A stretch of 40,328 bases of DNA from a virus, in the IMG/VR virus record IMGVR_UViG_3300049810_002844, positions 1-40,328 of that record; one strand, given 5' to 3'. The notes under the pieces are model-generated. The model did no database searches. It was not told where the DNA came from and saw only the letters and a program-made list of their open reading frames with translations. Shown one piece after another: positions 1,950 through 31,757 of the stretch (the stretch's first letter is position 1; every line of letters begins with the position of its first letter). Both the position numbers and the translations under genes were made by a program.

Positions 1950-2672
1950 ATGACTGTTAAAAAGTCCAACAAAGAGAAACCTGATTTTGTTATTCCTCAG
2001 TTAAAACAAAAAATTGCAGTAAATTCATTAAAGCTGACCGAAAAACAAAAGAAATTTTTATCAATTGCTTTTGATGAAAATACTAAACTTATGTTTATCG
2101 CTGGACCTGCTGGTTCAACAAAAACATATATGGCAGTATATTCAGCCTTAAGATTGCTGAGCGCTTATGACGAACTTGATTTGTTGTATGTTAGAACAGT
2201 AATTGAAAGCGCAGAAAAAGGGCTGGGAGCACTTCCTGGAGACATAGATGAAAAGTTTAACCCTTATATGGCTCCGTTAGAAGATAAGCTTTATGAAATG
2301 CTACCTAAGAATAACACCTCAAAAAGAGACATGTTTGACGAAGGAAGAATTTCAGCAATGCCGATTAATTACTTAAGGGGTTCGAGCTGGAAGGATAAGG
2401 TTGTTGTTGCCGACGAAGCGCAGAATTTTACATACAAAGAACTTACTACTCTGATCACAAGAATAGGGGAAAATTGTAAGCTATTTATATGTGGCGATTT
2501 TATGCAAAGCGATATTAATGGAAAAAGCGGTTTCGCTCCAATGTTTGATTTATTTAATTGTAAAGATAGTCGGGGCAATGGCATTCATGCTTTTAAATTT
2601 GGAAAGGAAGATATATTACGCAGTGAAATACTTAAATTTATTATCTCAAAGCTTGATTCCGCAAAAACTTAA
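1950..2672 (+). CDS. phoH: PhoH-like ATPase
   Basis: The 240-residue product matches the PhoH family of P-loop ATPases, common in marine phages. Walker A is GPAGSTKT at about residues 51-58, Walker B is VVVADEAQN near residue 153, and the LRGSSW segment before it and the CGDFMQ sensor segment after it are family hallmarks. Length is close to phage PhoH proteins. The biological role in phages is unsettled (RNA- or phosphate-stress-linked ATPase has been proposed). It follows the divergent GTGTATATA promoter and its 3' end runs directly into the papain-like protease gene, so it probably heads the lysis operon transcript. Confidence 0.9.
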   Translation: MTVKKSNKEKPDFVIPQLKQKIAVNSLKLTEKQKKFLSIAFDENTKLMFIAGPAGSTKTYMAVYSALRLLSAYDELDLLYVRTVIESAEKGLGALPGDIDEKFNPYMAPLEDKLYEMLPKNNTSKRDMFDEGRISAMPINYLRGSSWKDKVVVADEAQNFTYKELTTLITRIGENCKLFICGDFMQSDINGKSGFAPMFDLFNCKDSRGNGIHAFKFGKEDILRSEILKFIISKLDSAKT

Positions 2673-2694
2673 AGAAATATATTTCGAGAAAAAA

Positions 2695-3567
2695 TTGACT
2701 AATGTCCCTGTTCAGCAGATAGATGAGAGGGATTGGGTTTTGCCTGCGGATAAACTTTTCAAAGTAGCAGTCAAAGATCTAGAGAATTTTTCTTTGAGAG
2801 ACAAAACTCCTCCAGTTAAAAACCAAGGAAGCATTGGTTCTTGCGTTGGACATAGCGGTAGGGTGGTTTATGGGCACGCTAAAGAGTTTTTAAAGTCTGA
2901 GCCTAGCGCTATGCATATATATAAAACTGGACAACTATTTGACCCCTGGCCAGGCGAAGATTATTCTGGGACAACCATCAGGGGAGCAGCAAACGGATTA
3001 AAAAAGGTCGGGTGTTGTGAAGAAAAATATTGGCCTTATACTGGCAAGGAGAACGCTCCAAAAATCGATGGATATTTAGAGAATGCTGGAAAATTTAAAA
3101 TTAATGCTTTTTATGTAATTGATAAAAATAAAACAGGGCAAATTAAAAACATGCTCACGCAAGAACCCCTTTGGACTTCAATTATGGTTCACAGGGAACT
3201 TTTTAAAACCCCTCGCAACGGAATAATTGATTCGGAAAAATATCTTAATAGTGAAAAAGCAGGAGGTCACGCTATTGCGATGGTTGGATGGAAGACAATT
3301 AATAAAAAATTATATTGGGAGTTTCAAAACAGCTGGGGGAAGTGGTTTGGAGATAAAGGCTTTTTCTTTATTGAGAATTCTCTTTATAAAAAAATAATTA
3401 TTAATTCCAATGGACCTTTTTATATCGAAACCAAATCTGAAACTGAGCCAACAAAACCTGAACCAAAACCCGAACCGAAACCTGAGCCGAAGCAACAAGA
3501 AGGGTTTTTAAAATTTATCAACAATATAATTAAAAGTGTAATTGAAATTATAAAGAAGATTTTTTAA
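2695..3567 (+). CDS. Papain-family (C1) cysteine peptidase with Pro-rich linker and C-terminal amphipathic tail
   Basis: A C1A-type protease with all active-site blocks visible: oxyanion Gln44 and nucleophile Cys50 in PPVKNQGSIGSC, His192 in GGHAIAMVGW, and Asn212 in NSWG (numbered from the TTG at 2695). No signal peptide or inhibitory propeptide is seen. After the catalytic domain comes a repeated Pro-Glu-Pro-Lys linker and a hydrophobic, Lys-flanked helix at the C-terminus that could bind membrane. The frame is open leftward into phoH, so the start is uncertain. TTG 2695, preceded by GAG, gives a start soon after the phoH stop; TTG 2653 is an alternative. It is directly followed by holin-like genes, so a lysis role is inferred in place of a normal endolysin. 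Confidence 0.85.
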   Translation: MTNVPVQQIDERDWVLPADKLFKVAVKDLENFSLRDKTPPVKNQGSIGSCVGHSGRVVYGHAKEFLKSEPSAMHIYKTGQLFDPWPGEDYSGTTIRGAANGLKKVGCCEEKYWPYTGKENAPKIDGYLENAGKFKINAFYVIDKNKTGQIKNMLTQEPLWTSIMVHRELFKTPRNGIIDSEKYLNSEKAGGHAIAMVGWKTINKKLYWEFQNSWGKWFGDKGFFFIENSLYKKIIINSNGPFYIETKSETEPTKPEPKPEPKPEPKQQEGFLKFINNIIKSVIEIIKKIF

Positions 3568-3570
3568 ATT

Positions 3571-3762
3571 ATGGAACAAGAGAAACAATTCTGGAAGAGC
3601 AAGAAATTCTGGGCTGCATCTATGGCGGTCCTAGTCCCCATGCTGAACCATTTTTTAGGGTGGAATATGGATCACGAGGCAGTTACTACAGTTATGACCC
3701 CAATGCTTGCATACGTTGTTGGACAAGGTATGGCAGACCTAGGAAAAAACGCTAAAAAATAA
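3571..3762 (+). CDS. Small membrane protein, holin-like, 63 aa
   Basis: The 63-residue product has a basic N-terminus, one hydrophobic segment at about residues 14-30 and a second weaker one at about 37-55, then a lysine-rich tail. This is the size and charge layout of a class II type holin. It starts 3 nt after the protease stop, and its last base is the first base of the next gene. With the protease, the next holin-like gene and a spanin-like lipoprotein it forms a compact cassette. Function is inferred from topology and context, because holins share little sequence. Confidence 0.65.
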   Translation: MEQEKQFWKSKKFWAASMAVLVPMLNHFLGWNMDHEAVTTVMTPMLAYVVGQGMADLGKNAKK

Positions 3763-4196
3763 TGGGCCCAATATTGAATACTATTTTGGGAGCAGGAATC
3801 AAAATAGGGGCAAATTTGATTAATGCTTGGCTAGAGCAAAAGCGGCAGGACCAGCTGGCATTGGCAGCGAGAGATAAAGATACTCTGGATGCTTTAATTA
3901 AAAACCAGCAAGCTCAAGCATCTGACGGGTTTGTTAAAGCCACTCGCAGGGTTTTATTTTTATCCATAACATTCACTCTATGCTACCTTATGATATATTA
4001 TGCGCATAATCCAAGTATTAGTTATGATATGATTGTTCCTAAAGGAGATAATGCTAAATGGGGCATATTTTCTTGGTTTTTCGGAGCGACAGATTTTCAC
4101 GTTGTGACATTGACAGGAGGCCTTATGCTTTCTTCTTTTATGGATCTATGTTTTATGGTTGTAGGTTTTTATGCAATACCAAGTAAGAAAAGATGA
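3762..4196 (+). CDS. Holin-like protein, 3TM-holin type, 144 aa
   Basis: The 144-residue product starts with an amphipathic Gly/Ala/Ile helix. A charged Lys/Arg/Asp region with an AQASDGFVKATRR block comes next, then a transmembrane segment at about residues 66-82, and a second hydrophobic region at about 105-138 ending in basic residues. The layout resembles the 'holin of 3TMs' family of phages and gene-transfer agents. ATG start with a 1-nt overlap to the preceding gene and a 4-nt ATGA overlap with the following lipoprotein gene, so translation is probably coupled. Two adjacent holin-like genes suggest a holin/antiholin or holin/pinholin pair (inference). Confidence 0.7.
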   Translation: MGPILNTILGAGIKIGANLINAWLEQKRQDQLALAARDKDTLDALIKNQQAQASDGFVKATRRVLFLSITFTLCYLMIYYAHNPSISYDMIVPKGDNAKWGIFSWFFGATDFHVVTLTGGLMLSSFMDLCFMVVGFYAIPSKKR

Positions 4197-4459
4197 AATA
4201 TTTAATGATATTAAGTTTATTATTGTCAGGCTGTTTTTCAACTAAAATAAAGAGTCGGTCAGATTCCATGCCACCAAACGGGATAATTAATACTTTTGAT
4301 AATATAGATTCTGATTCCAATGGAACAATTGATAGGTTAGAATTTTATCAGTCTGCTAATCAAGTTAATTCGTATGATCCTAGTTTAGTACTAATTATAA
4401 TTATTGCTGCAGTTTTTATATGTTGTGCTATAACTTTTCGGTTTTCTTCAAAAAAATAA
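4193..4459 (+). CDS. EF-hand lipoprotein with C-terminal membrane anchor, unimolecular-spanin-like
   Basis: The 88-residue product begins with a lipoprotein signal (LLSGC, Cys14). It then has a canonical EF-hand calcium loop (D39-x-D41-x-N43-G-x-I-D47-x-x-E50), and ends with a strongly hydrophobic segment at about 64-83 followed by Ser/Lys. A lipid anchor at the N-terminus and a transmembrane anchor at the C-terminus is the topology of unimolecular spanins, which fuse inner and outer membranes in Gram-negative lysis. The EF-hand in the short periplasmic stretch is unusual. Start overlaps the holin-like gene by 4 nt (ATGA). Spanin function is inferred from topology and its place in the cassette. 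Confidence 0.7.
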   Translation: MKYLMILSLLLSGCFSTKIKSRSDSMPPNGIINTFDNIDSDSNGTIDRLEFYQSANQVNSYDPSLVLIIIIAAVFICCAITFRFSSKK

Positions 4460-4474: not shown

Positions 4475-5071
4475 ATGAATGACCCTTTTGCTTTAATAAT
4501 TGCATCGGTAGTGTCTGTAATTGGAACGCTAGTTAGTATCTGGTTTAAAAATAAACTAGAATATAAAAAAGAGAACTGTTTAGAGTCTAGATCAAAAACA
4601 GGATCTAATGTCTATCAGGCTTTGAAATATATTCACTCTGTTACTGATTGTGATCGAGCATATGTATTTGAGTTTCATAATGGGGAGCACTTTTTTTCAG
4701 GAAAAGGGCAGCAAAAGTTTAGTTGTACTTATGAATTTGTTAAGAACGGAGTTAGTAGTGAAGCTGGCAATTCGCAAAACCATAGAGTGTCTAATTTTAA
4801 CACATACATGGATGATTTAATTTCAGGCGGTATATTCGAATGTAAGGACGTATCCCTTCTTGAAGACCCGGCCTTTAAGAGTGTTTTAAAAAGCAAGGGG
4901 GTTGAGTCTATAGTGAATGTCCCAATTAAGACTTTAAATGGAGCGATCATAGGAATACTTGGAATAGAGTATCTAGACGCAGTTGTAGATTTTAAACGCG
5001 ACCCTTCAGATAGCGATTGTTTTACTTTTTTAAAGAGACAGGCTAGATTAATTGGCGGCTATATTGCTTAG
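4475..5071 (+). CDS. Membrane-anchored GAF-like domain protein, 198 aa
   Basis: An N-terminal transmembrane segment at about residues 6-24 is followed by a basic stretch. The next ~160 residues read like a GAF-type sensor domain: a helix with SNVYQALKYIHS, then the strand-rich CDRAYVFEFHNGEH block, a variable middle, and a VPI-x6-IIGILGIEYL strand pair near the end. Proteins with this FEFHNG block recur in phages, with unknown ligand. It has its own promoter-like element and stands apart from the lysis cassette by only 15 nt, so it may act in lysis timing or membrane sensing (speculative). Confidence 0.6.
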   Translation: MNDPFALIIASVVSVIGTLVSIWFKNKLEYKKENCLESRSKTGSNVYQALKYIHSVTDCDRAYVFEFHNGEHFFSGKGQQKFSCTYEFVKNGVSSEAGNSQNHRVSNFNTYMDDLISGGIFECKDVSLLEDPAFKSVLKSKGVESIVNVPIKTLNGAIIGILGIEYLDAVVDFKRDPSDSDCFTFLKRQARLIGGYIA

Positions 5072-13013: not shown

Positions 13014-14156
13014 ATGGAAATTAAAATCGAAAGAACTCCAGAGCAGGTCGAGCTAGTAAAAGCTATGGCCTCCAAGAACCGTGAAGTTGCTTATGAAGCT
13101 CAAGCTGCGCTTGGGGATTTCATCGGACCAGTATTGGCCGAAGTTGTTAATCAAGCTCCTACGGTAAGTAACTTGTTTACTAGCCTTCAGTTTAACTCTG
13201 AAGATAACGCAAGCATTCCTTTGGACCTTTATCACGATATTACTGATGAAGATTATGTTCAAATTTGGAGTCAGAACACCCCAGGTGGTCTGCCTACAAA
13301 CCATGTTGCACCAGTACAACAAGAAATGAAATTTACCACCTATCGCCTTGATAGTGCTGTTTCCTTTGATAAAAGGTTCGCTCAGCGCTCTCGCATGGAT
13401 GTGGTAAGCAAGACTTTTACAAGAATTGCACAAGAAATTCTTTTAAAGCAAGAAAAAACATCTGCTACCATGATTATGACAGCATTGGCTAACGCTAGTA
13501 CAAATACTAAGCAACATGTTGTTCGTTCTCATACAGCAGACCGTTTCCTTCTCGCCGACCTGAATGCGTTGTTTACCCTCGCCAAGAGAATTAATTCTGC
13601 TTGGACGGGCGGAACACCTACCGAGCGTCGCGGAAAAGGAATCACAGACCTTCTCGTTTCTCCTGAAATCGTAGAAGAATTACGTGGAATGGCATACAAC
13701 CCAATCAACACGAAAGCTAGCCCTATCGCGGCTAACTCGACTGGAGAAGGTATTCCTGCCACAGACGATGTTCGCAACGCTGTTTTTAATAGCGCTGGCA
13801 TTCCTGAATTCTACGGAGTTTCTATTATGGAGCTTAACGAAATGGGTATTGGTCAAAAATTCAATGATGTCTTTGATACTGTCGCAGGTGCTACAACCTT
13901 TGCTGCCAATGTTGGCTCAGCAGGTGGAGCCGCAGCTGAATTTGACGGTGCTTCCGAAGAAATCATCGTTGGAGCCGACCTTTCTCGTGAGTCCTTGCTT
14001 CGTGCAGTAGCTACTGATTCTGAAAGCGGAGCCGAGTTTGACTTGGTTGTTGATGATCAGTGGGTAAGCCGCTCTCAAAAGATTGGTTATTACGGATCTC
14101 TTGAAGAAGGCCGCATGATTGTAGACGATCGCGTTCTTACAGGAATTATTGTTTAA
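13014..14156 (+). CDS. Major capsid protein, HK97 fold
   Basis: The 380-residue product has the expected layout. An N-terminal helical arm (about 5-45) is followed by a P-domain with the Q-x-E-M-K-F-T-T-Y-R strand and a long spine helix (FTRIAQEILLKQEKTSATMIM, about 135-160). An A-domain region has LLVSPEIVEELR and IPEFYGVSIMELNEMG, and the C-terminal region ends in GYYGSLEEGRMIVDDRVLTGIIV. AAGGAGA at 12997-13003 is a strong ribosome site 10 nt before the ATG. It is the last gene before a strong terminator, and codon use is richer in C- and G-ending codons than average for the window. Confidence 0.88.
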   Translation: MEIKIERTPEQVELVKAMASKNREVAYEAQAALGDFIGPVLAEVVNQAPTVSNLFTSLQFNSEDNASIPLDLYHDITDEDYVQIWSQNTPGGLPTNHVAPVQQEMKFTTYRLDSAVSFDKRFAQRSRMDVVSKTFTRIAQEILLKQEKTSATMIMTALANASTNTKQHVVRSHTADRFLLADLNALFTLAKRINSAWTGGTPTERRGKGITDLLVSPEIVEELRGMAYNPINTKASPIAANSTGEGIPATDDVRNAVFNSAGIPEFYGVSIMELNEMGIGQKFNDVFDTVAGATTFAANVGSAGGAAAEFDGASEEIIVGADLSRESLLRAVATDSESGAEFDLVVDDQWVSRSQKIGYYGSLEEGRMIVDDRVLTGIIV

Positions 14157-14177
14157 GATTTAATCTTAAAGACATTT

Positions 14178-14209
14178 AAAAAAATCCACCTTTTGGTGGA
14201 TTTTTTTTT
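14178..14209 (+). terminator. Rho-independent terminator of the head operon
   Basis: An AATCCACC / GGTGGATT stem with a TTTT loop (14191-14194), extended by A-T pairs and followed by nine T residues (14201-14209), 21 nt after the capsid stop. It is the strongest rightward terminator in the window. Confidence 0.92.
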
Positions 14210-14229
14210 GTTCTCGTATATAATGTATT

Positions 14230-14239
14230 TGTGTATCCT
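14230..14239 (+). promoter_or_regulatory. TGTG-TATCCT promoter-like element
   Basis: It lies between the head-operon terminator and the ATG at 14248 (hexamer ends 8 nt before it). A separate TATAAT at about 14217-14222 is also present just upstream, so two overlapping start signals are possible. Restart of transcription after the terminator is required here. Confidence 0.5.
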
Positions 14240-14247
14240 ATAGAGAT

Positions 14248-14667
14248 ATGAGTCAAAAAAAAGTAACCAAAAAGAGCGTTCGTGCTCGTAAGCCTAAGTC
14301 TAAAAAAGAGAAGCTTAATAAGCTAACTCAAACTAACGGCAAGGTTTATGAAGACGAAGATACAAAAAAAACAAGAAAGCTAGAACAGATTCTGGACGTC
14401 GCAGTTACGAATCCATTTGGAACTTCATCAGTCAAAGTATTCGAAGAAAACTTAGCAAATATGAATCTTTCAGAAATGAAAGAAGTTGCAGTTAGAGCTG
14501 GGATTTTTCCGTCAGGAAATCAAACCATGCTTAAAAATAAACTTAAAAAAGCTTTTAAAGCTGCTAATCCTGATCAGTTACAAGTAATAATTGACAAAGG
14601 CCCACCTATAGAATTAAACCCTGAGAATCCTAAGCATAAACAGCTTATCGATTATTTAAATAGCTAA
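14248..14667 (+). CDS. SAP-like domain basic protein, 139 aa
   Basis: The first ~30 residues are a Lys/Arg-rich tail. Residues about 72-108 fit the helix-loop-helix of a SAP DNA-binding motif: L-S-E-M-K-E-V-A-V-R-A-G-I, then SGN, then a Lys-rich helix LKNKLKKAF. The C-terminus is Pro/Asn/Lys-containing. It is the first gene after the capsid terminator and is followed 1 nt later by a neck-like gene, so a DNA-binding or head-associated role is likely (inference). Independent promoter-like element upstream. Confidence 0.6.
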   Translation: MSQKKVTKKSVRARKPKSKKEKLNKLTQTNGKVYEDEDTKKTRKLEQILDVAVTNPFGTSSVKVFEENLANMNLSEMKEVAVRAGIFPSGNQTMLKNKLKKAFKAANPDQLQVIIDKGPPIELNPENPKHKQLIDYLNS

Positions 14668-14668
14668 C

Positions 14669-15145
14669 ATGCATGCGAATTACAGTCTTGCCGCTCTAGC
14701 TGCTCAAATCTATGATTCTGAGTTGGTGATTGGTGGCACAGGAGCAGAAAGAGACGCTGAATTATTAATTATTCAATCTTGGCTAGAAGCTCATGTCGGA
14801 GAGGTTAACACTTTAATTAACACATCTTTTACTGTAAGTAATGGTGAGGTTGAAGGTTTCCACGAAGAAGAGGCTGGAATATTGCGAGAACTGTATGTGA
14901 TTCAATACTATAAAAAACAAAGTCGTTCGGTCTTAAAGCAGGCTGACGACTCTTCTAATTCTTTAGATTTCTCTGAATTAAGAGAAGGAGATTCCGTAAT
15001 TAAAAGATCTTCAAAACGAGATCATTTAAAAGATTATAAAAGTTTAATAATGCATTCGCAGCAAACATTGGATAAATTAATAGCTAATTATAATACTTAT
15101 CAATCTCCTCCTTCTCAGGTTATAGAAAAAGATTCTTACAACTAA
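14669..15145 (+). CDS. Hypothetical neck/head-completion-like protein, 158 aa
   Basis: The 158-residue, mainly helical protein starts with a short MHANYSLAALAAQIYDSE helix. Its IIQSWLEAHVGEVNTLIN region resembles the helical core of head-tail connector or adaptor proteins (gp6/gp15 type), and the LRELYVIQYYKKQSR segment supports this. The C-terminal part is charged, ending in a Ser/Pro tail. Position just after the head genes fits a connector. No direct family match can be claimed from reading alone. Confidence 0.6.
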   Translation: MHANYSLAALAAQIYDSELVIGGTGAERDAELLIIQSWLEAHVGEVNTLINTSFTVSNGEVEGFHEEEAGILRELYVIQYYKKQSRSVLKQADDSSNSLDFSELREGDSVIKRSSKRDHLKDYKSLIMHSQQTLDKLIANYNTYQSPPSQVIEKDSYN

Positions 15146-15151
15146 ATTTTT

Positions 15152-15161
15152 TGTGTATATA
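15152..15161 (+). promoter_or_regulatory. TGTG-TATATA promoter-like element
   Basis: It lies just after the stop at 15145. The hexamer ends 5 nt before the ATG at 15167, predicting a leaderless transcript for the last gene of the rightward block. Confidence 0.5.
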
Positions 15162-15166
15162 TTGCT

Positions 15167-15706
15167 ATGGAAAACTACTCTGATTTAAAATTCTTGACTG
15201 ACGAATCTATTGCTAACGATGAAGATTTAAGAATGTATAAATCTCAACTATATCAATTAGCTAAATGCGCTCAAAGCTTATTTGAGATGTTGGAATCTGG
15301 GGAGCAGTTAGAAGAGTGGATGAAAAGCGCGATTATAACCTCATATAACGGCCTAGAAAAGGTTTCTAACTATGTAGAGTATGAGACTTCATTCCCAGCA
15401 GTAAAAGACCCTCTAGAAGACCTAGGGGACGAAGAAAAGGAAACTAATAATTATCTTACAAATGAAGATAAGCGATTCCCTGTTCCACAAGAGGGTGAAG
15501 GCGGAGATGATTTTATGGGAAGATGTTTAGCAGACCCAGCGATGAAGGGAAGGTATCCAACTCAATCCGATAGGTTCCTTGCGTGCATGTTGGTATTTAA
15601 TAAGCCACCAAAAAATGAAGCCAACAATCCTGGCGAAAAGTTTGAAGATCCTATGCAGCCTAAAGATGTTGCTGAAATAGATCCTGAGAAACCTATTTTA
15701 CCATAA
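15167..15706 (+). CDS. Hypothetical head-associated protein with paired-Cys motif, 179 aa
   Basis: The N-terminal ~75 residues are helical and acidic (a four-helix-like, LAKCAQSLFEMLE region). A Glu/Asp/Pro-rich linker leads to a compact motif DFMGRCLADPAMKGRYPTQSD followed by RFLACM. The motif C-x6-14-YP-x4-RxxAC is frequent in short domains at the ends of phage head proteins, where its role is unknown. The C-terminus is Pro/Asp-rich. The gene ends tail-to-tail with the leftward Clp gene, overlapping it by 14 nt, and no hairpin terminator separates the two convergent units. Confidence 0.6.
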   Translation: MENYSDLKFLTDESIANDEDLRMYKSQLYQLAKCAQSLFEMLESGEQLEEWMKSAIITSYNGLEKVSNYVEYETSFPAVKDPLEDLGDEEKETNNYLTNEDKRFPVPQEGEGGDDFMGRCLADPAMKGRYPTQSDRFLACMLVFNKPPKNEANNPGEKFEDPMQPKDVAEIDPEKPILP

Positions 15707-18176
15707 TTCCTAATTTATTATCTTTATAAATTAAAGTTGTTTTAGCTCCGTCTTTAATCTCTTTTTTAATAATTAATTCAGATAAAGGGTTTTCGATTTC
15801 TTTTTCTATTATTCTGCCAATGGGCCTTGCTCCAAAATTTTGTTCTGATATATAATCTGCGATATAATCTTTAGCAGATTTAGCTATATTAAAACTTATT
15901 CCCATGTCTTTTAATTTTGCTTTTAAAGGCCTGACTTCTATATTTAATATTTTATTAATATCTTCTTTTGATAAAGGTTGGTAAATTAAAACTTCTGACA
16001 TACGATTGACAAACTCTGGACGTAGTGCTTCACATGCTTTTTGTATAATTTTTTCTTTTTTCTTTTCTTCATTATCTGCAGCATTAAAACCTATTCCTCC
16101 AGATTTATGCGATATTTCAGAGCCAATGTTACCAGTAATAATAATTACTGAATTGGAAAAATCTCCAACTCTGCCTAATCCGTCTGTCAACCTACCCTCA
16201 TCTAATATTTGAAGCATGCATTGTACTGCGTCAGGATGAGACTTTTCGATCTCATCGAACAGAATGACACTATAAGGATTTTTGCTTATCTTATCAATAA
16301 GAAAAGAGCCCTCTTCGTAACCTACATACCCTGGAGAGGCTCCAGAAAGCTTGTTGCTTGAGGTTTTGTCTGAAAATTCAGACATATCTACTCTAATAAT
16401 TTCTGAGTTCTCACCAACTAAAAATCTAGACAATACTTTGGCTGTGTGAGTTTTTCCTAACCCAGTTTGACCAAGGATCAGGAAGCTAGCGATAGGCTTA
16501 GTTCTTTCTCGTAAGCCTGATTTTGATCTTAATATGGCTTTTGATATAGATTCTATAGCTTCATCTTGACCCACAATATTTCTTTTTAATTTACCTTCTA
16601 ATGATAAATATATATCTGCATCACTTTTTGACAATTCTGAAACAGGTATTTTTGTTGCTTGAGATACAGTTTTATATATATCACTTGCGGTAATAGTTTT
16701 TTTATACTTAAATTTTTTCTTCGCCCACGAGTTTAATGTTTGTTTATACCTGTCCAAAAGCGCATCTTGAGCTTGTAGTATTTCAGTTGTGTCTTTAAAA
16801 GAATTACTTAAATCATCTTCTTTTTTCATCAACTCTTCAAGCTCTTTTTCAATATCCAATATTTTCTTAGGTCGTTTAAATGACTTAATTTTTACTTTGG
16901 CTCCTGTTTGATCCATGATATCGATCGCCTTATCAGGAAAGTTCTTGGAGGGGATATATCTCGCCGCCAACTCAACTATGACTTCTAAGCACTCATCAGA
17001 ATATTCTACAACGTGAAAATCTTCATATTTAGACTTTATCCCTTCAAGTATCTGTAGGGTTTCTTCTTTGGATGGAGCTCTACATCTAACAGCTTGGAAT
17101 CTTCTGTCTAATGCTCCGTCTTTTAATATGGTCTTTTTATATTCACCATCTGTCGTAGCTCCAATGCATCTTATTTTTCCTCGTGCTAAGGCAGGCTTAA
17201 GCATGTTGGCCGCATCCATACTTCCTTCAGCGCTGCCAGCGCCAACCAACGTATGTATTTCATCTATGAATAATATTTTTTTATCGTCTTGTGATATTTC
17301 TTCTATAATAGATTTTAATCTTTCTTCAAATTGACCTCTATATTTTGTTCCAGCAATCATTGACCCTAAGTCTAATCCGTAGATACTGCGATTTAATAAT
17401 GGTTCAGGGCAATCTCCTGACTCAATAGAATTAGCCAAACCTTCAACAATAGCAGTTTTTCCAACCCCTGGGTCTCCAATTAAAACTGGATTATTTTTAG
17501 TTCTTCTAGATAATATCTCGCAGACTTCAAGGATCTCTTCATCTTTACCAATAATGTTGTCAAGCTTTCCTTTTCTTGATTGCTCATTATAGTTTATGCA
17601 AAATTTTTCAACAGCAGAAGTTTTTTTATTAGATTGCTGTTGAGTTCCTCCTTGAGCTTGTTGGGCTTCTTTTTGTAAATCTTGAGGAGGGTGAATAAGA
17701 AAAGGTATAAAATTGCTTTCTGCAGATGGCTCCGCTGAGAGTTGAAAATAGTTTTTAATTTCTTCTATAATTAAATCTTCAGGAATTTCTAAGGATTTAA
17801 AATATTTTGATACAGGAGAGCCTTCATACTTTAATAGAGATAAGAGTATATGCTCTATACCTACATAATCATGTCCAAAGTTCGCGCTGATTACGGAGGA
17901 TATTTCAAGCACCTGCTTAAATTTAGAAGAAAAAGTAACAGTTATACCGTTTTCTTTAGCAGGGGAATTTTTTGATTTCATGGAAGATATTAGTTTAATA
18001 GGGTCAATTCCCATTGAAGTTAATACTTCATGCACTATCCCGGCTTTTAAATGAAGAATTCCTAAAAATAATTCTTCAAGACAAGCCTTGCTTTTGTCTT
18101 TTTCTCTTGCTATTTTCTTAGATATTTCGATCGCTCTTTGAGCTCTAGGAGTAAAATTTGGTTTTGGTTGCATCAT
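15693..18176 (-). CDS. clpC: ClpC-like AAA+ unfoldase
   Basis: The 827-residue double-AAA+ Hsp100. Two Clp-N repeats at about 7-75 and 80-145. NBD1 has Walker A GDPGVGKT (234-241), Walker B ILFIDE (301-306) and arginine finger ALDRRF (355-360). A short M-domain coiled coil lies at about 435-485, as in ClpC rather than ClpB. NBD2 has GQTGLGKT (569-576), VILFDE (637-642) and RPEFVNR. IGF at 695-697 matches the ClpP-docking loop (IGF/IGL/VGF), so it may feed host ClpP. An upstream GTG at 18188 is in frame but belongs to the promoter element, so ATG 18176 (or the adjacent ATG 18173) is preferred. Confidence 0.9.
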   Translation of the reverse strand: MMQPKPNFTPRAQRAIEISKKIAREKDKSKACLEELFLGILHLKAGIVHEVLTSMGIDPIKLISSMKSKNSPAKENGITVTFSSKFKQVLEISSVISANFGHDYVGIEHILLSLLKYEGSPVSKYFKSLEIPEDLIIEEIKNYFQLSAEPSAESNFIPFLIHPPQDLQKEAQQAQGGTQQQSNKKTSAVEKFCINYNEQSRKGKLDNIIGKDEEILEVCEILSRRTKNNPVLIGDPGVGKTAIVEGLANSIESGDCPEPLLNRSIYGLDLGSMIAGTKYRGQFEERLKSIIEEISQDDKKILFIDEIHTLVGAGSAEGSMDAANMLKPALARGKIRCIGATTDGEYKKTILKDGALDRRFQAVRCRAPSKEETLQILEGIKSKYEDFHVVEYSDECLEVIVELAARYIPSKNFPDKAIDIMDQTGAKVKIKSFKRPKKILDIEKELEELMKKEDDLSNSFKDTTEILQAQDALLDRYKQTLNSWAKKKFKYKKTITASDIYKTVSQATKIPVSELSKSDADIYLSLEGKLKRNIVGQDEAIESISKAILRSKSGLRERTKPIASFLILGQTGLGKTHTAKVLSRFLVGENSEIIRVDMSEFSDKTSSNKLSGASPGYVGYEEGSFLIDKISKNPYSVILFDEIEKSHPDAVQCMLQILDEGRLTDGLGRVGDFSNSVIIITGNIGSEISHKSGGIGFNAADNEEKKKEKIIQKACEALRPEFVNRMSEVLIYQPLSKEDINKILNIEVRPLKAKLKDMGISFNIAKSAKDYIADYISEQNFGARPIGRIIEKEIENPLSELIIKKEIKDGAKTTLIYKDNKLGIMVK

Positions 18177-18179
18177 ATT

Positions 18180-18189
18180 GATATACACT
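18180..18189 (-). promoter_or_regulatory. GTG-TATATC promoter-like element before clp
   Basis: Abuts the dnaE stop codon (TAG ends at 18188). The hexamer ends 3 nt before ATG 18176 and 6 nt before the adjacent ATG 18173. It would allow clp to be expressed separately from the replication operon. Confidence 0.45.
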
Positions 18190-20767
18190 ATTTTAGGTCT
18201 GCTAATTTCATATATATATTTTCATTTAAGACATTTATGTTATTTACAAAGAATATATCGTCTGCTTTAGAACCATAGGTCACTATTATTGAGTTTTTTT
18301 CAGGAGCTTGATTTGTTGATAAAAATTCATCAAGCTTACTTTCTTTAGAATTATTGCACAGCATGCAATGAAGTGAGCCAAACTCGTCAGAAATTTCTAA
18401 TTTCATATACTTATTTCCAGAACGGCTGACTCTAGTAAAGCAATCATTTACTATGCCTATCACAGAAAGATTTGCGTTCCTTTTCTTTTCTTGATACTCT
18501 TTTAAGTTTGTTAACTTTAGCCCTGGTTTTCCAAATATATTTCTAAGATCTTCACTATAAGAATACCCTAATAATTGATTTTCAAAATACCAGTTTGCAA
18601 AGCTACTAGACTTACTGTTTTGCATATATATATTTTTATATGGTTCATATTTCTTTTTAAAGGTTTGAAATCTAGACTCTTTAAACAGCGGCCTCCCGTC
18701 GTCTCCCACGAGGTTTTTGTCCCTCGCAGCGACTATAGCATCTAATAATTTATAATCATACTTTTCACCTAGCTGTATAAAATTTCTTTTTTCTCTATCG
18801 GTTAGTATATTAAATACTTGAGCTTCTAGCACCAGAAGGGGCCTACTGCCCTCAAAGTGCGACAAAGCTCCAGCCTGTATCAATGCGCATAAAGTCCCTA
18901 TATTTAGACCAGCTTGTTTAGCAGAGATAAACATTTCGTACTTAGTGTCGCCTGATTCAGATCTAAACTCTATGAGAGATTTTAAAGCCTTTTCGCTAAT
19001 GCCTTTTATACTATTTAATCCATATCTTATGTTTTTGCCTTCTATTGAAAAATCCATTTCTGATTTAGATAGGTTCGGTGGCAATAGCTTTATGCCAAAA
19101 TAAGACAGTTCTTTACTAATTTTACCAACCTCTTCTTGTGGAGAGGGTTCAAACTTGGTCATATTTAGAAGAGATAAAAAGAATTGTATTGGATATTTAA
19201 ATTTTAAATAAGTCGTCCACGCTGCCAATGTTGAGTAAGCAATCGAATGGCTTTTATTAAAAGAATAATTTGCACTATCTTCTGCAACTCTCCATAAGAC
19301 TTCTCCTGCGTCGGGGCCTTCTCTGCTTAAGTCTTTATTTGTTAACTTGTTTGACTTAATCTTTTCGAATATTTTCTCTTTCCATTCCGCCATTTTGTCG
19401 ACTTTCTTTTTGCCGACAATTCTTCTGAGCTGCTCAGATTCATCTAATGTAAACCCAACCCTTACCGCCATTTTCATTAACTGCTCTTGATAAAGCGGAA
19501 TGCCTCCAGTATAATCTAAGATTTGGTCAAAGATAGGATGTACACTCTGGAAATTTCCAGTTTGAACGTAAGTCTCGTAATTAGATAAAAAATCTAAGGC
19601 TCCAGGGCGAGCTATAGCCAAAACAGCGCTTAGTTCCTCAAGGTTTTTAGGTTTAATTTTTTTGCAAACTTTGAAATCTGTATCAGCTTCAATTTGAAAT
19701 AATCCGCGAGGTGAAATTAAATCTTGCAAGTTTAAATATACATCTTCAGAGTGGACATCAATTTCTTCAAGCTCTATTCCAACCTGTTTTGCGGTATTAT
19801 GTAAAACACTTAAGGTTCTTAATCCTAAGATATCAAACTTAACCATTAACTCTGCAACCCAATTCATGTCGTAGCCAGTCACTTTTTGCCCTTCTGAGTT
19901 CATGAAGACTGGACATACTTCTGAAATTGCTTTATGAGATATAGCTATGCCTGAAGGATGCACTCCCGTATTCTTATTTAAATTTTGTATCTTTTGAGCA
20001 ATCTTTACAATTCCAGGAAATTCTTTTGACCAATTATGAAAATCTTCGCTTTCTTCAATAGAGGCGTCTATAGAAGCCACTTTTCCAAATTTCTTTGGAA
20101 TCATATCGCTTACGCGATTGGCGTCTTGCTCAGATTGATCTCCTACAATCTTAATGCACTCTTTTAAACATAACTTACTACTCAAAGTATTTAAAGTTAA
20201 AATTTTTGCAGTCCTGCCAGGGTGTTTCTTTTCAATATATTCTACAACTAAATGCCTATATTCGTAAGCTATATCATTATCAACATCAGCAAGTAAACTT
20301 CCATCTAAATATATCTCTCCATTGCTCTCAATTTTTCTAGCTCTACTTTTGGATACAAACCTTTCAAAAAAGAGTTCATTTTCTATTGGATCTATTTTGG
20401 TAACATTAATCAAAAACAGAACTAACGATCCTGCCGCACTACCTCTTCCTGGTCCAGTTGGAATTTGATTTTCATGGCAAAAATTAATAATATCCCAGTT
20501 TAATAAAATATAATCTGTAAAACCTAATTCTTCTAAAGTGTTAAGTTCATATTCTAATCTTTCTCTATATTCGGATTCGTTGTCTTTATTTGTGATTTGT
20601 TTATCTTTTAATCCTTTTTCGCAGATTTTAGAAAGGAATTCGAAATTAGAAACTTGTTGATCTATGTTGAGTTGGGTATAAAACTTTTTACTAATCTTGA
20701 GTTTGGGCAGTTTGACTCCAGGCTCCATGCATCCATCGTAATTTTTAAAGTTATCAAGAAAACTCAT
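18188..20767 (-). CDS. dnaE: DNA polymerase III alpha-like polymerase (DnaE core, without PHP)
   Basis: The 859-residue C-family polymerase lacking the N-terminal PHP domain. The palm shows the nucleotide-binding GPGRGSAAGSL (105-115), catalytic Asp161 and Asp163 in ADVDNDI, and the third Asp312 in VKFDILGLRT, so all three catalytic acids are present. Fingers (FNKSHSIAYS), helix-hairpin-helix (SIKGISEKALKSL) and a C-terminal OB-like domain (about 750-840) follow. No clear beta-clamp motif was identified. ATG 20767 is chosen over the frame-open codon at 20782 because GGGAGGT lies 6 nt upstream. It overlaps the exonuclease stop by 4 nt. The PHP part is encoded separately at 21886-22614. Confidence 0.92.
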   Translation of the reverse strand: MSFLDNFKNYDGCMEPGVKLPKLKISKKFYTQLNIDQQVSNFEFLSKICEKGLKDKQITNKDNESEYRERLEYELNTLEELGFTDYILLNWDIINFCHENQIPTGPGRGSAAGSLVLFLINVTKIDPIENELFFERFVSKSRARKIESNGEIYLDGSLLADVDNDIAYEYRHLVVEYIEKKHPGRTAKILTLNTLSSKLCLKECIKIVGDQSEQDANRVSDMIPKKFGKVASIDASIEESEDFHNWSKEFPGIVKIAQKIQNLNKNTGVHPSGIAISHKAISEVCPVFMNSEGQKVTGYDMNWVAELMVKFDILGLRTLSVLHNTAKQVGIELEEIDVHSEDVYLNLQDLISPRGLFQIEADTDFKVCKKIKPKNLEELSAVLAIARPGALDFLSNYETYVQTGNFQSVHPIFDQILDYTGGIPLYQEQLMKMAVRVGFTLDESEQLRRIVGKKKVDKMAEWKEKIFEKIKSNKLTNKDLSREGPDAGEVLWRVAEDSANYSFNKSHSIAYSTLAAWTTYLKFKYPIQFFLSLLNMTKFEPSPQEEVGKISKELSYFGIKLLPPNLSKSEMDFSIEGKNIRYGLNSIKGISEKALKSLIEFRSESGDTKYEMFISAKQAGLNIGTLCALIQAGALSHFEGSRPLLVLEAQVFNILTDREKRNFIQLGEKYDYKLLDAIVAARDKNLVGDDGRPLFKESRFQTFKKKYEPYKNIYMQNSKSSSFANWYFENQLLGYSYSEDLRNIFGKPGLKLTNLKEYQEKKRNANLSVIGIVNDCFTRVSRSGNKYMKLEISDEFGSLHCMLCNNSKESKLDEFLSTNQAPEKNSIIVTYGSKADDIFFVNNINVLNENIYMKLADLK

Positions 20768-21405
20768 ACTTCTACCTCCCACAACATTTTACTAAATACT
20801 TCCATATTCTTTTTAATATCATACATGGCATCATGTAACTTATTGGGGTCAAAATCTATATCGTAGTCCTTGCAGCACTGTTGAAGGTTAACCTTAAGGC
20901 CTCTTTCCCTAATATTTAAAAGCTTATACATCCAGGGAAGTCTTTCGGAATTATTTTTCTTTTCAATGTTTTTCTTAATCGATCTTGCTAAGCAGACAGT
21001 ATCTATAATTCTATTTATATATGAGTAGTCTGGGGTTTTCTTTAATAGCTTTCTGTGGATGTTATGAATGTATACATCGAAACCTAAAACGTTATGACCT
21101 AAAGGTATAATTGATTCATCATACAAATACTTCTCAAAATGTTCAAGAGCTTTGCGTGGGCAAGATTTTCTTTTATTATACATAGTTTTGGTAAATCCTG
21201 TGATCTTAGCCGCCTCTTTAGATACGTGGATATCTTTCCAGTTTAAAATATAATCTGCTTGATCTAGAATTTTATCCGCCTGAAAAACCATAAATGCTAA
21301 TTGCCAAGGTTTGTTATCAGTCGATATTAAATTTAAATTACATGTTTCGTAATCAAAAATAATATACTTTTGTTTTTTATTGAATCTTAATAACTCTTCT
21401 TTCAT
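20764..21405 (-). CDS. DnaQ-like 3'-5' exonuclease (DEDDh)
   Basis: The 213-residue proofreading-type exonuclease. ExoI is IIFDYETCNLN (acidic pair Asp and Glu near 18-20), ExoII is LGHNVLGFDVYIHN (about 102-115) and ExoIII is LHDAMYDIKKN (about 188-198). ExoIII has the HxxxxD spacing of the DEDDh subgroup. Such enzymes act with C-family polymerases as the epsilon subunit. It lies between the SET gene (4-nt overlap) and dnaE (4-nt ATGA overlap), so translation of the three is coupled, and a proofreading partner role for the adjacent DnaE is the natural inference. Confidence 0.9.
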   Translation of the reverse strand: MKEELLRFNKKQKYIIFDYETCNLNLISTDNKPWQLAFMVFQADKILDQADYILNWKDIHVSKEAAKITGFTKTMYNKRKSCPRKALEHFEKYLYDESIIPLGHNVLGFDVYIHNIHRKLLKKTPDYSYINRIIDTVCLARSIKKNIEKKNNSERLPWMYKLLNIRERGLKVNLQQCCKDYDIDFDPNKLHDAMYDIKKNMEVFSKMLWEVEV

Positions 21406-21905
21406 TTTAAATCTGTTCTATTTTCTGTATTTCCGTAGTTTATGAATAGTTCTTCGTTTTTATTAACATCTTTAATTGTATAATAATCAAAGCAAAAATC
21501 TTTTTTATTAAATTTGTATCCAACATTTGGTTCATGAGAATGATTATATATCATTCCGTGACCTAATACAACTGCATAATTTAGTAAATTGTTAATTTTT
21601 TCATAGCCTAACTTTAATATAGTTTCTGCTTTGTCTTTAAAGTCTTCGTTATAAGATAATAGTTTTGCCATATCTATTTTGGTTTTTTCTTTTTGGATCT
21701 CTTCAGATTTATCTTTTTCAGGAAAACAAAACATGTATCTTCTTAAGTTTGCGTCTTGTCCTCCGTGATCTTTCTCGGGTATAATAAAATGGCACTGCTC
21801 TAGCAATGTGCCTAGTTTTATATCTTCTTTCGCAAAAACACCTCTTCCAGAGATATTAGAGCGGTCAATTTTTATTTTGTTAGAATTAAAAAGGTTGTAC
21901 TGCAT
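21402..21905 (-). CDS. SET-domain protein (putative protein-lysine methyltransferase)
   Basis: The 167-residue product with the main SET motifs: SGRGVFAKEDIKLGTLLE (19-36), the NHSHEPN block (121-127) corresponding to NHS-C-x-P-N with the AdoMet/pseudoknot residues, and FINYG (154-158) corresponding to the catalytic Tyr motif. Pre- and post-SET cysteine clusters are absent, as in small bacterial or viral SET proteins. The substrate is unknown and could be a replication, host chromatin-like or ribosomal protein. The gene overlaps the PHP gene by 20 nt and the exonuclease by 4 nt, so it is wired into the polymerase operon. Confidence 0.85.
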   Translation of the reverse strand: MQYNLFNSNKIKIDRSNISGRGVFAKEDIKLGTLLEQCHFIIPEKDHGGQDANLRRYMFCFPEKDKSEEIQKEKTKIDMAKLLSYNEDFKDKAETILKLGYEKINNLLNYAVVLGHGMIYNHSHEPNVGYKFNKKDFCFDYYTIKDVNKNEELFINYGNTENRTDLK

Positions 21906-22614
21906 GTTCTAAAAAAGATTCAAAACAAAATTCATCGCTGCCAAAATGATCTAGACCCGGATTACTTAAGCTTTTTTGCCCAAACTTTCTATTACAGATA
22001 CATTGATATGTTTGAAAAGCTTCTAAGTCAGATTTGTTTTTGTATTTAATCGATTTAACTTCTTCTGTTTTGTAACCACTTGATTTACAAAACTTAATCA
22101 CTTTCTCTCGAATCATTGCATCAAAAGGCAAATCATTGTATTCTAGGAAGAAAGTCGGATCAAAACTTTTGATGTCTGGGGTGCAATTATCAAATTGCAT
22201 TAGGTTTTTATATATAAACGAATCATAAAAGGGGATAGCCATCAGCAAATCCTTGCTCCAATTATCTTTAAGAGAAGATATTGATACGCAGTTATCCTCG
22301 GCAGATTTAGTGCTAAATATGAGGTTTAATTTCTTGCACCCTCTTGCGTTTTTTGCAAATACTATAACTTTGTGTTTTTGTTCGCAGCACGCGAGCTTTA
22401 GTCCAAAGATTAATTCAATCCCTAATTCTTTGGATTTAGTAAAAGCTTGAGGAAAACCTGTTAGAGAATTCTCGACAAGAACTAATTGTTTGAGATTATT
22501 CTCTTGTGCAATATCAAATACGCTATCTGAACCGTCAGTGTTTTCAGGGTTTGGTTCGTTTAAAGTAAGAATACTCTTTCCAATACTATAATGAGAAGTA
22601 AATATAGGTATCAT
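21886..22614 (-). CDS. Detached, degenerate PHP domain of DNA polymerase III alpha
   Basis: The 242-residue product reads as the N-terminal PHP module of DnaE. It has a TSHYSIG start (HxH motif reduced to one His), then an A-x-E-N-N-L-K-Q-L-V-L-V-E-N helix-strand, then a LTGFPQAFTKSKELGIELIFGLKL block matching the GIKPI-G strand of DnaE. A C-terminal extension includes the FLEYNDLP region. The metal-binding residues are largely lost, so it is probably a structural subunit. The frame is open up to TTG 22653, but that TTG is the -35 box of the promoter. ATG 22614 fits the promoter position. The polymerase core is encoded two genes downstream. Confidence 0.75.
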   Translation of the reverse strand: MIPIFTSHYSIGKSILTLNEPNPENTDGSDSVFDIAQENNLKQLVLVENSLTGFPQAFTKSKELGIELIFGLKLACCEQKHKVIVFAKNARGCKKLNLIFSTKSAEDNCVSISSLKDNWSKDLLMAIPFYDSFIYKNLMQFDNCTPDIKSFDPTFFLEYNDLPFDAMIREKVIKFCKSSGYKTEEVKSIKYKNKSDLEAFQTYQCICNRKFGQKSLSNPGLDHFGSDEFCFESFLEHAVQPF

Positions 22615-22637
22615 ATGGTAAGAAGTATACCATATGA
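22611..22637. repeat. Palindrome over the -10 box and start codon of the PHP gene
   Basis: A perfect 10-bp inverted repeat, TCATATGGTA (22611-22620) and TACCATATGA (22628-22637), with a 7-nt loop. It spans the -10 box of the leftward promoter and the start codon at 22612-22614, so it is positioned to act as a repressor operator. Confidence 0.55.
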
Positions 22638-22653
22638 ACCTATAAAATGTCAA
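22624..22653 (-). promoter_or_regulatory. Sigma70-type promoter of the polymerase operon
   Basis: On the minus strand TTGACA (22653-22648), 18-nt spacer, TATACT (22629-22624). The -10 box ends 9 nt before the ATG at 22614, so the leader would be very short or absent. It drives the PHP, SET, exonuclease and dnaE genes. Confidence 0.8.
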
Positions 22654-31352: not shown

Positions 31353-31757
31353 TTATTTAATTACACCCTTATTTATTAATTCATCAATTTCTTTTTCCTC
31401 AAAGACCTCAATGAGCTTGATGTCATTCATTTCGCAATACTCTCTTTTTTGATGGTCTCGGCGCATTTGTGATATGAAGTTTATTTTGTTTTTGCCATGA
31501 AAATAAGGAACATACTTTACGTGCTGCCTACCCTGGACTTCTATAGCAATTCTTTTGTTCGCATTATAAAAATCAAACGACATTTTACTGCCGGCGACAG
31601 GGAACTCTTCGAATACAACATGGTTCTCCCATACATTTTTAAGCTTGCTTTTTACGGCGAATTGTATTTTGCTTTTGCTTTGAGCTTGCCAATCTATTCT
31701 ATATTTATAAGGCTTTGACACTCTTTTTGTCGCACCAGATAATGTTTTAAATTGCAT
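31353..31757 (-). CDS. PD-(D/E)XK endonuclease-like protein (VSR/DUF559-type fold), 134 aa
   Basis: A basic N-terminus, then a core with SFDFYNANKRIAIEVQGRQHVK (Asp and Glu-x-Gln of the PD-(D/E)XK type, about 60-80), a RRDHQKREYCEMN helix (about 97-110) and an IKLIEVFEEKE end strand. The layout matches small restriction-type or VSR-like endonucleases in phages, where IE-x-(D/Q)-G-x-Q-H precedes the RD-x-x-K-x-x-Y/F-C helix. It overlaps the recombinase gene by 11 nt. A recombination or repair role is inferred from context. Confidence 0.75.
   Translation of the reverse strand: MQFKTLSGATKRVSKPYKYRIDWQAQSKSKIQFAVKSKLKNVWENHVVFEEFPVAGSKMSFDFYNANKRIAIEVQGRQHVKYVPYFHGKNKINFISQMRRDHQKREYCEMNDIKLIEVFEEKEIDELINKGVIK

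Follow-up and report, generated by a model that had tools for sequence, protein, structure and literature searches.

Sequence comparison indicates that a group of uncultured marine phages carries a protease whose fold is exchangeable, being either a papain (family C1) or a subtilisin (family S8) domain joined to a common tail predicted to anchor it in the membrane. The starting point was a virus record of 40,328 bases, a fragment of about 40 kb (hereafter the window), in which all coordinates without a locus label are given; the features from PhoH to the GAF gene lie on the plus strand. Our tentative preference is to see this protease as an interchangeable, inner-membrane-tethered enzyme that acts late in infection and probably assists lysis, and not as a soluble endolysin of the classical type. 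In the literature open to search we found no description of two unrelated proteases with a common membrane-anchoring tail.

In the window the protease gene occupies positions 2623 to 3567. Scanned in a 290-aa form, its product matched the Pfam papain family PF00112 with residues 33–234 (E = 2.8e-19), covering positions 6–210 of the 220 in the profile and thus nearly its full length. This was the sole Pfam match above the cut-off, and the catalytic domain of a known wall hydrolase was absent. The oxyanion-hole Gln (2824–2826) and the catalytic Cys (2842–2844) belong to the motif NQGSIGSCVG, the catalytic His (3268–3270) to GGHA and the catalytic Asn (3328–3330) to FQNSWG, and in an alignment of 16 homologues all four are invariant. 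The protein was modelled with AlphaFold2 (mean pLDDT 78) and the model compared to solved structures with Foldseek; it has a papain fold, the best 50 matches listed were all C1 proteases, and the top match was xylellain (PDB 3ois; E = 7.5e-14, 22% identity). Pairs of homologues gave dN/dS values of about 0.02–0.14, i.e., purifying selection. The initial annotation, which had been made from the DNA letters of the window, had described a C1 protease with an intact Gln/Cys/His/Asn set and an amphipathic C-terminal tail, and both descriptions are borne out, the former by the profile match, the invariance in the 16 homologues and the model, and the latter by a real helix with a hydrophobic moment of 0.70. 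The catalytic residues are common to the phage enzyme, xylellain and the bacterial C1A cysteine proteases; in contrast to these, the phage enzyme has a Pro-rich linker, a predicted membrane anchor and a site within a phage lysis block.

The start codon is uncertain, with candidates at GTG 2623, TTG 2653 (used in the initial annotation) and TTG 2695. GTG 2623, which is in register with the ATG start of the homologue at locus L009 and would overlap the 3' end of the upstream gene, is the probable one, and the choice of start leaves about 30 to 70 residues ahead of the C1 domain. An inhibitory pro-domain and a secretory signal are usual, although not universal, in C1A proteases. The form of the phage protein scanned with Pfam gave no I29 match and has no pro-domain, and its N-terminus contains neither a signal peptide nor a SAR-type sequence. 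The C1 proteases of these phages are also poor in cysteines.

The neighbours of the protease gene form a compact block. Upstream is a PhoH-like ATPase gene (1950–2672; PF02562, E = 2.4e-46), which is conserved at this place and the 3' end of which probably extends into the protease gene. Downstream are hol1 (3571–3762), encoding a 63-aa holin-like membrane protein (PHROG phrog_9987 'holin', E = 4.3e-9), hol2 (3762–4196), encoding a 144-aa protein with hydrophobic segments that is conserved in IMG/VR, a u-spanin-like lipoprotein gene (4193–4459), and a gene for a GAF-domain protein with an N-terminal hydrophobic segment (4475–5071; PF01590, E = 3.6e-5), whose place is conserved by synteny. From the protease to the lipoprotein the spacing is operon-like, with a gap of 3 nt followed by overlaps of 1 nt and 4 nt. 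The earlier description of two holin-like genes and a spanin-like lipoprotein behind the protease holds for hol1 by its family match and for the lipoprotein by its anatomy; since the window copy of hol2 has no Pfam or PHROG family and two divergent copies have no Pfam match, hol2 can be called holin-like only from its hydrophobic segments and position. We found 132 stretches homologous to hol2 in IMG/VR, with 71–100% identity among the 80 listed. Such conservation is unusually high for a lysis gene, and hol2 may have another function.

The lipoprotein has an N-terminal LSGC lipobox (MKYLMILSLLLSGC; Cys codon 4232–4234), an EF-hand-like loop (4307–4342; EF-hand matches fell below the Pfam cut-off) and a C-terminal transmembrane (TM) segment at about 4385–4441, SLVLIIIIAAVFICCAITF, as read from the sequence. 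This is the anatomy of a unimolecular spanin, the predicted function of the protein, as judged from the published u-spanin architecture and lipobox consensus (PMC6139136). Like T1 gp11, it combines an LSGC lipobox with a C-terminal TM segment (PMC6139136), lacks periplasmic Cys and stands at the end of its block, whereas its short length and EF-hand-like loop set it apart; the likeness to known u-spanin families is one of architecture, with no sequence match shown.

Relatives of the C1 protease were present at 21 loci in IMG/VR, and neither C1 nor hol2 had a detectable homologue in the GenBank phage collection. At loci L002–L011 the order PhoH, C1, hol1, hol2, lipoprotein, GAF and sigma is kept, and because the block recurs in these ten other contigs, chance association can be ruled out. 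At L015–L022 the C1 gene instead stands between the genes for large and small RNR. Behind it come a 105-aa gene and a lipoprotein that resembles a u-spanin and has an EF-hand-like loop, the distance from C1 to this lipoprotein being one or two genes; no holin lies alongside, and in five contigs hol2 is found elsewhere in the same record. We considered the 105-aa gene as a lysis gene and rejected it, as it is found in many other places. At L012–L014 the C1 gene lies elsewhere again, beside another small lipoprotein and away from hol2, with hol1 6–9 kb off. In a close relative, L033, hol1 directly follows PhoH and the slot holds no protease.

Some other genes at these loci may be recorded here. 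Members of a phage lipoprotein family with conserved Cys/His/Glu (L020:11143-11757, L052:3584-4171 and L089:6432-7064) adjoin C1 in L020 and hol2 in L052, L056 and L089. The L052 member was considered as a second lysis enzyme on account of these residues and of a weak match, below the cut-off (E = 0.0014), to PF18022, the Marasmius lectin C-terminal (papain-like) domain, and was dropped because its model was of too low quality (pLDDT 55). Near hol2, some relatives also encode secreted proteins that resemble metalloproteases and have an HExxH-type motif (L097:4375-5754, L052:1939-3357 and L053:1470-2879), with weak Pfam matches only.

Swaps of enzyme fold at a fixed lysis position are familiar for endolysins. 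When loci were collected by means of hol2 and 80 of them read, one of them, L024, was found to have a 379-aa subtilase at the position of C1 (PF00082, E = 1.3e-44). Across 38 records, C1 was present in 13, S8 in 12, both in 0 and neither in 13, a set in which thirteen records had been picked for C1 and a few for S8, and in which some of the neither-protease records are fragments. In a less biased subset, S8 occurred in 9 of 22 records chosen by hol2 versus 0 of 13 C1 records (one-sided Fisher p = 0.007, an optimistic value given that the records are related). The exchange is seen at more than one locus. Behind PhoH or before hol2, C1 is found in the window and L002–L011, and S8 in L024, L053, L100, L101, L173, L175, L178, L182 and L235, with PhoH directly 5' of S8 in several relatives; between RNR large and RNR small lies C1 in L015–L022 and S8 in L244 and L245. 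S8 also lies beside TerL (L181, L246) and among unrelated genes (L247, L248), so that in several S8 phages the neighbours of the protease are PhoH, TerL or unrelated genes and not a holin. As the slot takes either of two unrelated folds and never both, proteolysis is the conserved property, and what these phages conserve is, by sequence prediction, a protease at the membrane with its fold free to change.

The S8 partner is of the same type as the intracellular subtilisins (PDB 7xr8, 7y6m and 2wv7), to which it aligned from residue 3–4. With 7xr8 the alignment started at residue 3 (E = 8.6e-48), leaving no large pro-domain, and like the intracellular subtilisins it has no classical pro-domain. 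Related ISP-like proteases occur in large Bacillus phages (e.g., FADO and SP-15). The matches to proteases of cultured phages stop by query residue 300, before the linker, TM helix and tail, whereas nearly all intact S8 copies in the present phage group have a Pro/Glu linker, a TM helix and mostly an acidic tail.

The C-terminal part of the window protease consists of a Pro/Glu/Lys-rich linker (3442–3501), which is evident from the sequence and coincides with low pLDDT at residues 290–309, and of the amphipathic helix (3502–3564; residues 309–328 of the model), which occupies the position where relatives have a TM anchor. Linkers are longer in relatives, except that those of L013 and L014 are short and less Pro-rich, and the amphipathic helix is confined to the window's own clade (window, L002, L003 and L005). 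Outside this clade, the intact proteins of both families have a charged linker, in most cases rich in Pro/Glu/Lys, that leads into a C-terminal TM helix, followed in many of them by a short acidic tail, (D/N)(W/F)DxK. When the non-redundant ORFs from all loci read were scanned, 2443 in total with a minimum length of 100 aa, 18 had this motif within the last 60 residues, and all 18 were C1 or S8 proteases, a count that is partly circular because the motif was defined from these same proteases. The independent test is the comparison of tail to tail: the C1 tail of L020 and the S8 tail of G016 agree in 18 of 24 residues, and 0 of 2000 shuffles reached their score, while the remaining C1/S8 pairs range from strong down to chance level. 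For 25 of 28 sequences the flanking charge bias, read by the positive-inside rule, predicts a cytoplasmic protease side, from which we infer that the C1 or S8 domain lies on the cytoplasmic face of the inner membrane, the window copy having no TM helix to which the rule would apply.

We also looked for a conventional lysis enzyme. None of the window ORFs scanned against PHROGs or Pfam was an endolysin, in agreement with the earlier remark that no muramidase, amidase or CHAP endolysin is visible in this 40-kb fragment. In the records of 19 relatives, nothing above the cut-off was found with PF00959, PF01510, PF13539, PF01464, PF01551 or PF01520; PF00182 is not counted since its control failed too. 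PF00877 matched eight records. Where the neighbours were readable, the matching gene stands immediately behind one for a lambda gpL-like tail protein and its product is JAB+NlpC-like, and for that reason we regard it as a gpK-like tail-tip protein and reject it as an endolysin. The gpK-like copy in the genome G005 is JAB only (115 aa); more generally, this tail protein is JAB+NlpC in RNR-locus phages (L164–L171) and JAB only in the window lineage (L131:8766-9113). When 75 unknown proteins of G005 (211 kb) were compared to Pfam and PHROGs, no lysis family was among the matches listed, which for one PHROG set cover 25 of 29 families. Across relatives' records of 65–211 kb, no classical endolysin domain was detected among the families searched. 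The separate endolysin gene that the initial annotation had set against its own idea was thus sought in relatives and not found; it could belong to an unrecognised family, and these genomes probably encode, at some other place, an enzyme of novel type that degrades peptidoglycan.

Several relatives encode DUF1501 proteins, possibly as auxiliary genes (L014:3875-5176, L134:7430-8704, and L245); in L245, a PSCyt2/PSD1 (DUF1549/DUF1553) protein, possibly auxiliary as well, lies beside DUF1501 as its partner (L245:12327-13610 and 13632-15902). The DUF1501 and PSCyt2/PSD1 families are concentrated in Planctomycetota and Verrucomicrobiota. The hosts are therefore likely to be PVC bacteria, for which DUF1501 clusters have been discussed (PMC4452313). 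This does not support the speculation in the initial annotation that the host envelope depends on protein, as an S-layer or a crosslinked wall: Planctomycetes possess peptidoglycan (PMC4432640), which weakens the protein-wall idea and leaves a host lacking peptidoglycan unsupported. A search of genome contigs gave one match, in a Flavobacteriaceae MAG (L103, CAJQLD010000031.1). We rejected Flavobacteriaceae as a host, this probably being a misplaced phage contig because its genes closely resemble phage locus L016.

Sequence comparison establishes the integrity of the active site, the predicted anchor module, the common tail, the mutual exclusion of the two folds and the conserved linkage to PhoH and the holin/u-spanin block in the window lineage, and from these a working model can be proposed. 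A flexible Pro/Glu/Lys linker and a C-terminal anchor would attach the C1 or S8 protease to the inner membrane on its cytoplasmic face; in the window the anchor is the amphipathic helix, and in most relatives it is a TM helix that often carries an acidic WDxK tail. It would be made late, together with the holins and the u-spanin, and would stay tethered until the holins open the membrane; it could then cut inner-membrane or envelope proteins, which would allow the u-spanin to finish the disruption. Since the protease is linked to the holin/u-spanin block here and, in the RNR-locus phages, to a u-spanin, the most economical reading is that it functions in the final step of infection. That relatives replace C1 by a subtilisin-like protease on the same tail suggests that phages of this group depend on proteolysis by an enzyme bound to the inner membrane, which perhaps helps to break the host open, and the tethered protease probably acts as a lysis accessory. 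Against this reading, the protease and the holin/u-spanin genes are not always adjacent (L033, L246–L248 and L012–L014), 13 of the 38 records have neither protease, some of these being fragments, and the genes may lie together as members of a late-gene region and not because they function jointly. If correct, it offers a candidate proteolytic step in lysis for phages in which no known wall hydrolase was found, and is relevant to the way in which planctomycete-type cells, with their long-debated wall, are opened by phages.

The initial annotation had gone further and proposed a protein-cleaving 'endolysin'. Let out by the holins, such an enzyme would degrade protein that holds the envelope together. 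In favour of this proposal are the conserved holin/u-spanin block, with C1 between PhoH and the holins, a slot at which one protease is swapped for another, and the lack of any known peptidoglycan hydrolase, among the families searched, in the 19 records and among the matches listed for the 75 unknown G005 proteins; the long flexible linker could also give the enzyme reach. Other observations speak against it. An endolysin would sit beside a holin and a spanin, as the protease does in the window and L002–L011 but not in L012–L014 or in several S8 phages. To reach the wall, an endolysin would either be soluble and depend on a holin or have a signal or SAR sequence; the protease has no N-terminal export sequence of either type, and the charge bias around its C-terminal anchor suggests a cytoplasm-facing tether. 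Many relatives have neither protease and must therefore lyse by other means, and peptidoglycan is present in Planctomycetes (PMC4432640). We regard an endolysin of this kind as rather unlikely, and are just as sceptical of the broader proposal that in large marine phages, probably of Planctomycetota/Verrucomicrobiota, a membrane-tethered protease with its fold exchangeable on a fixed anchor replaces the peptidoglycan hydrolase. PeiW and PeiP are cysteine peptidases of MEROPS family C71. These pseudomurein endoisopeptidases are a precedent in that phage peptidases lyse a host devoid of ordinary peptidoglycan (PMC4592898). The bond they cleave is an isopeptide bond in pseudomurein, and they are likened to C1 as a precedent and not by sequence.

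A serious rival, which we nevertheless consider doubtful, is that the protease works at the inner membrane in host takeover or counter-defence, where it would clear away membrane or defence proteins of the host, and lies near lysis genes by chance. The cytoplasm-facing tether suits such a role, as do the accessory, patchy distribution, the several S8 phages without an adjacent lysis gene, and a swap partner of the intracellular-subtilisin type that is also found in large Bacillus phages (the match ending before the tail). It sits less easily with the recurrence of a u-spanin nearby at two unrelated loci and with the strict limit of one copy per genome. Far less probable is a capsid- or virion-processing enzyme: phages commonly carry such proteases and the block is about 5 kb from the terminase gene, but the C1-bearing genome G005 encodes, as a separate protein, a head maturation protease of ClpP type (PF00574; phrog_94, E = 1.7e-50), which makes C1 unlikely to be the capsid protease, and neither a membrane anchor nor a patchy distribution is expected of capsid maturation.

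Two further features of the window lie outside the lysis block. Its DNA polymerase III alpha-like sequence is split between 18188–20782 and 21886–22653, which match different parts of the same PHROG (405) and are separated by an exonuclease-subunit gene and a small gene. An HNH homing endonuclease gene (31353–31757) is located between the UvsX-like and DnaB-like helicase genes.
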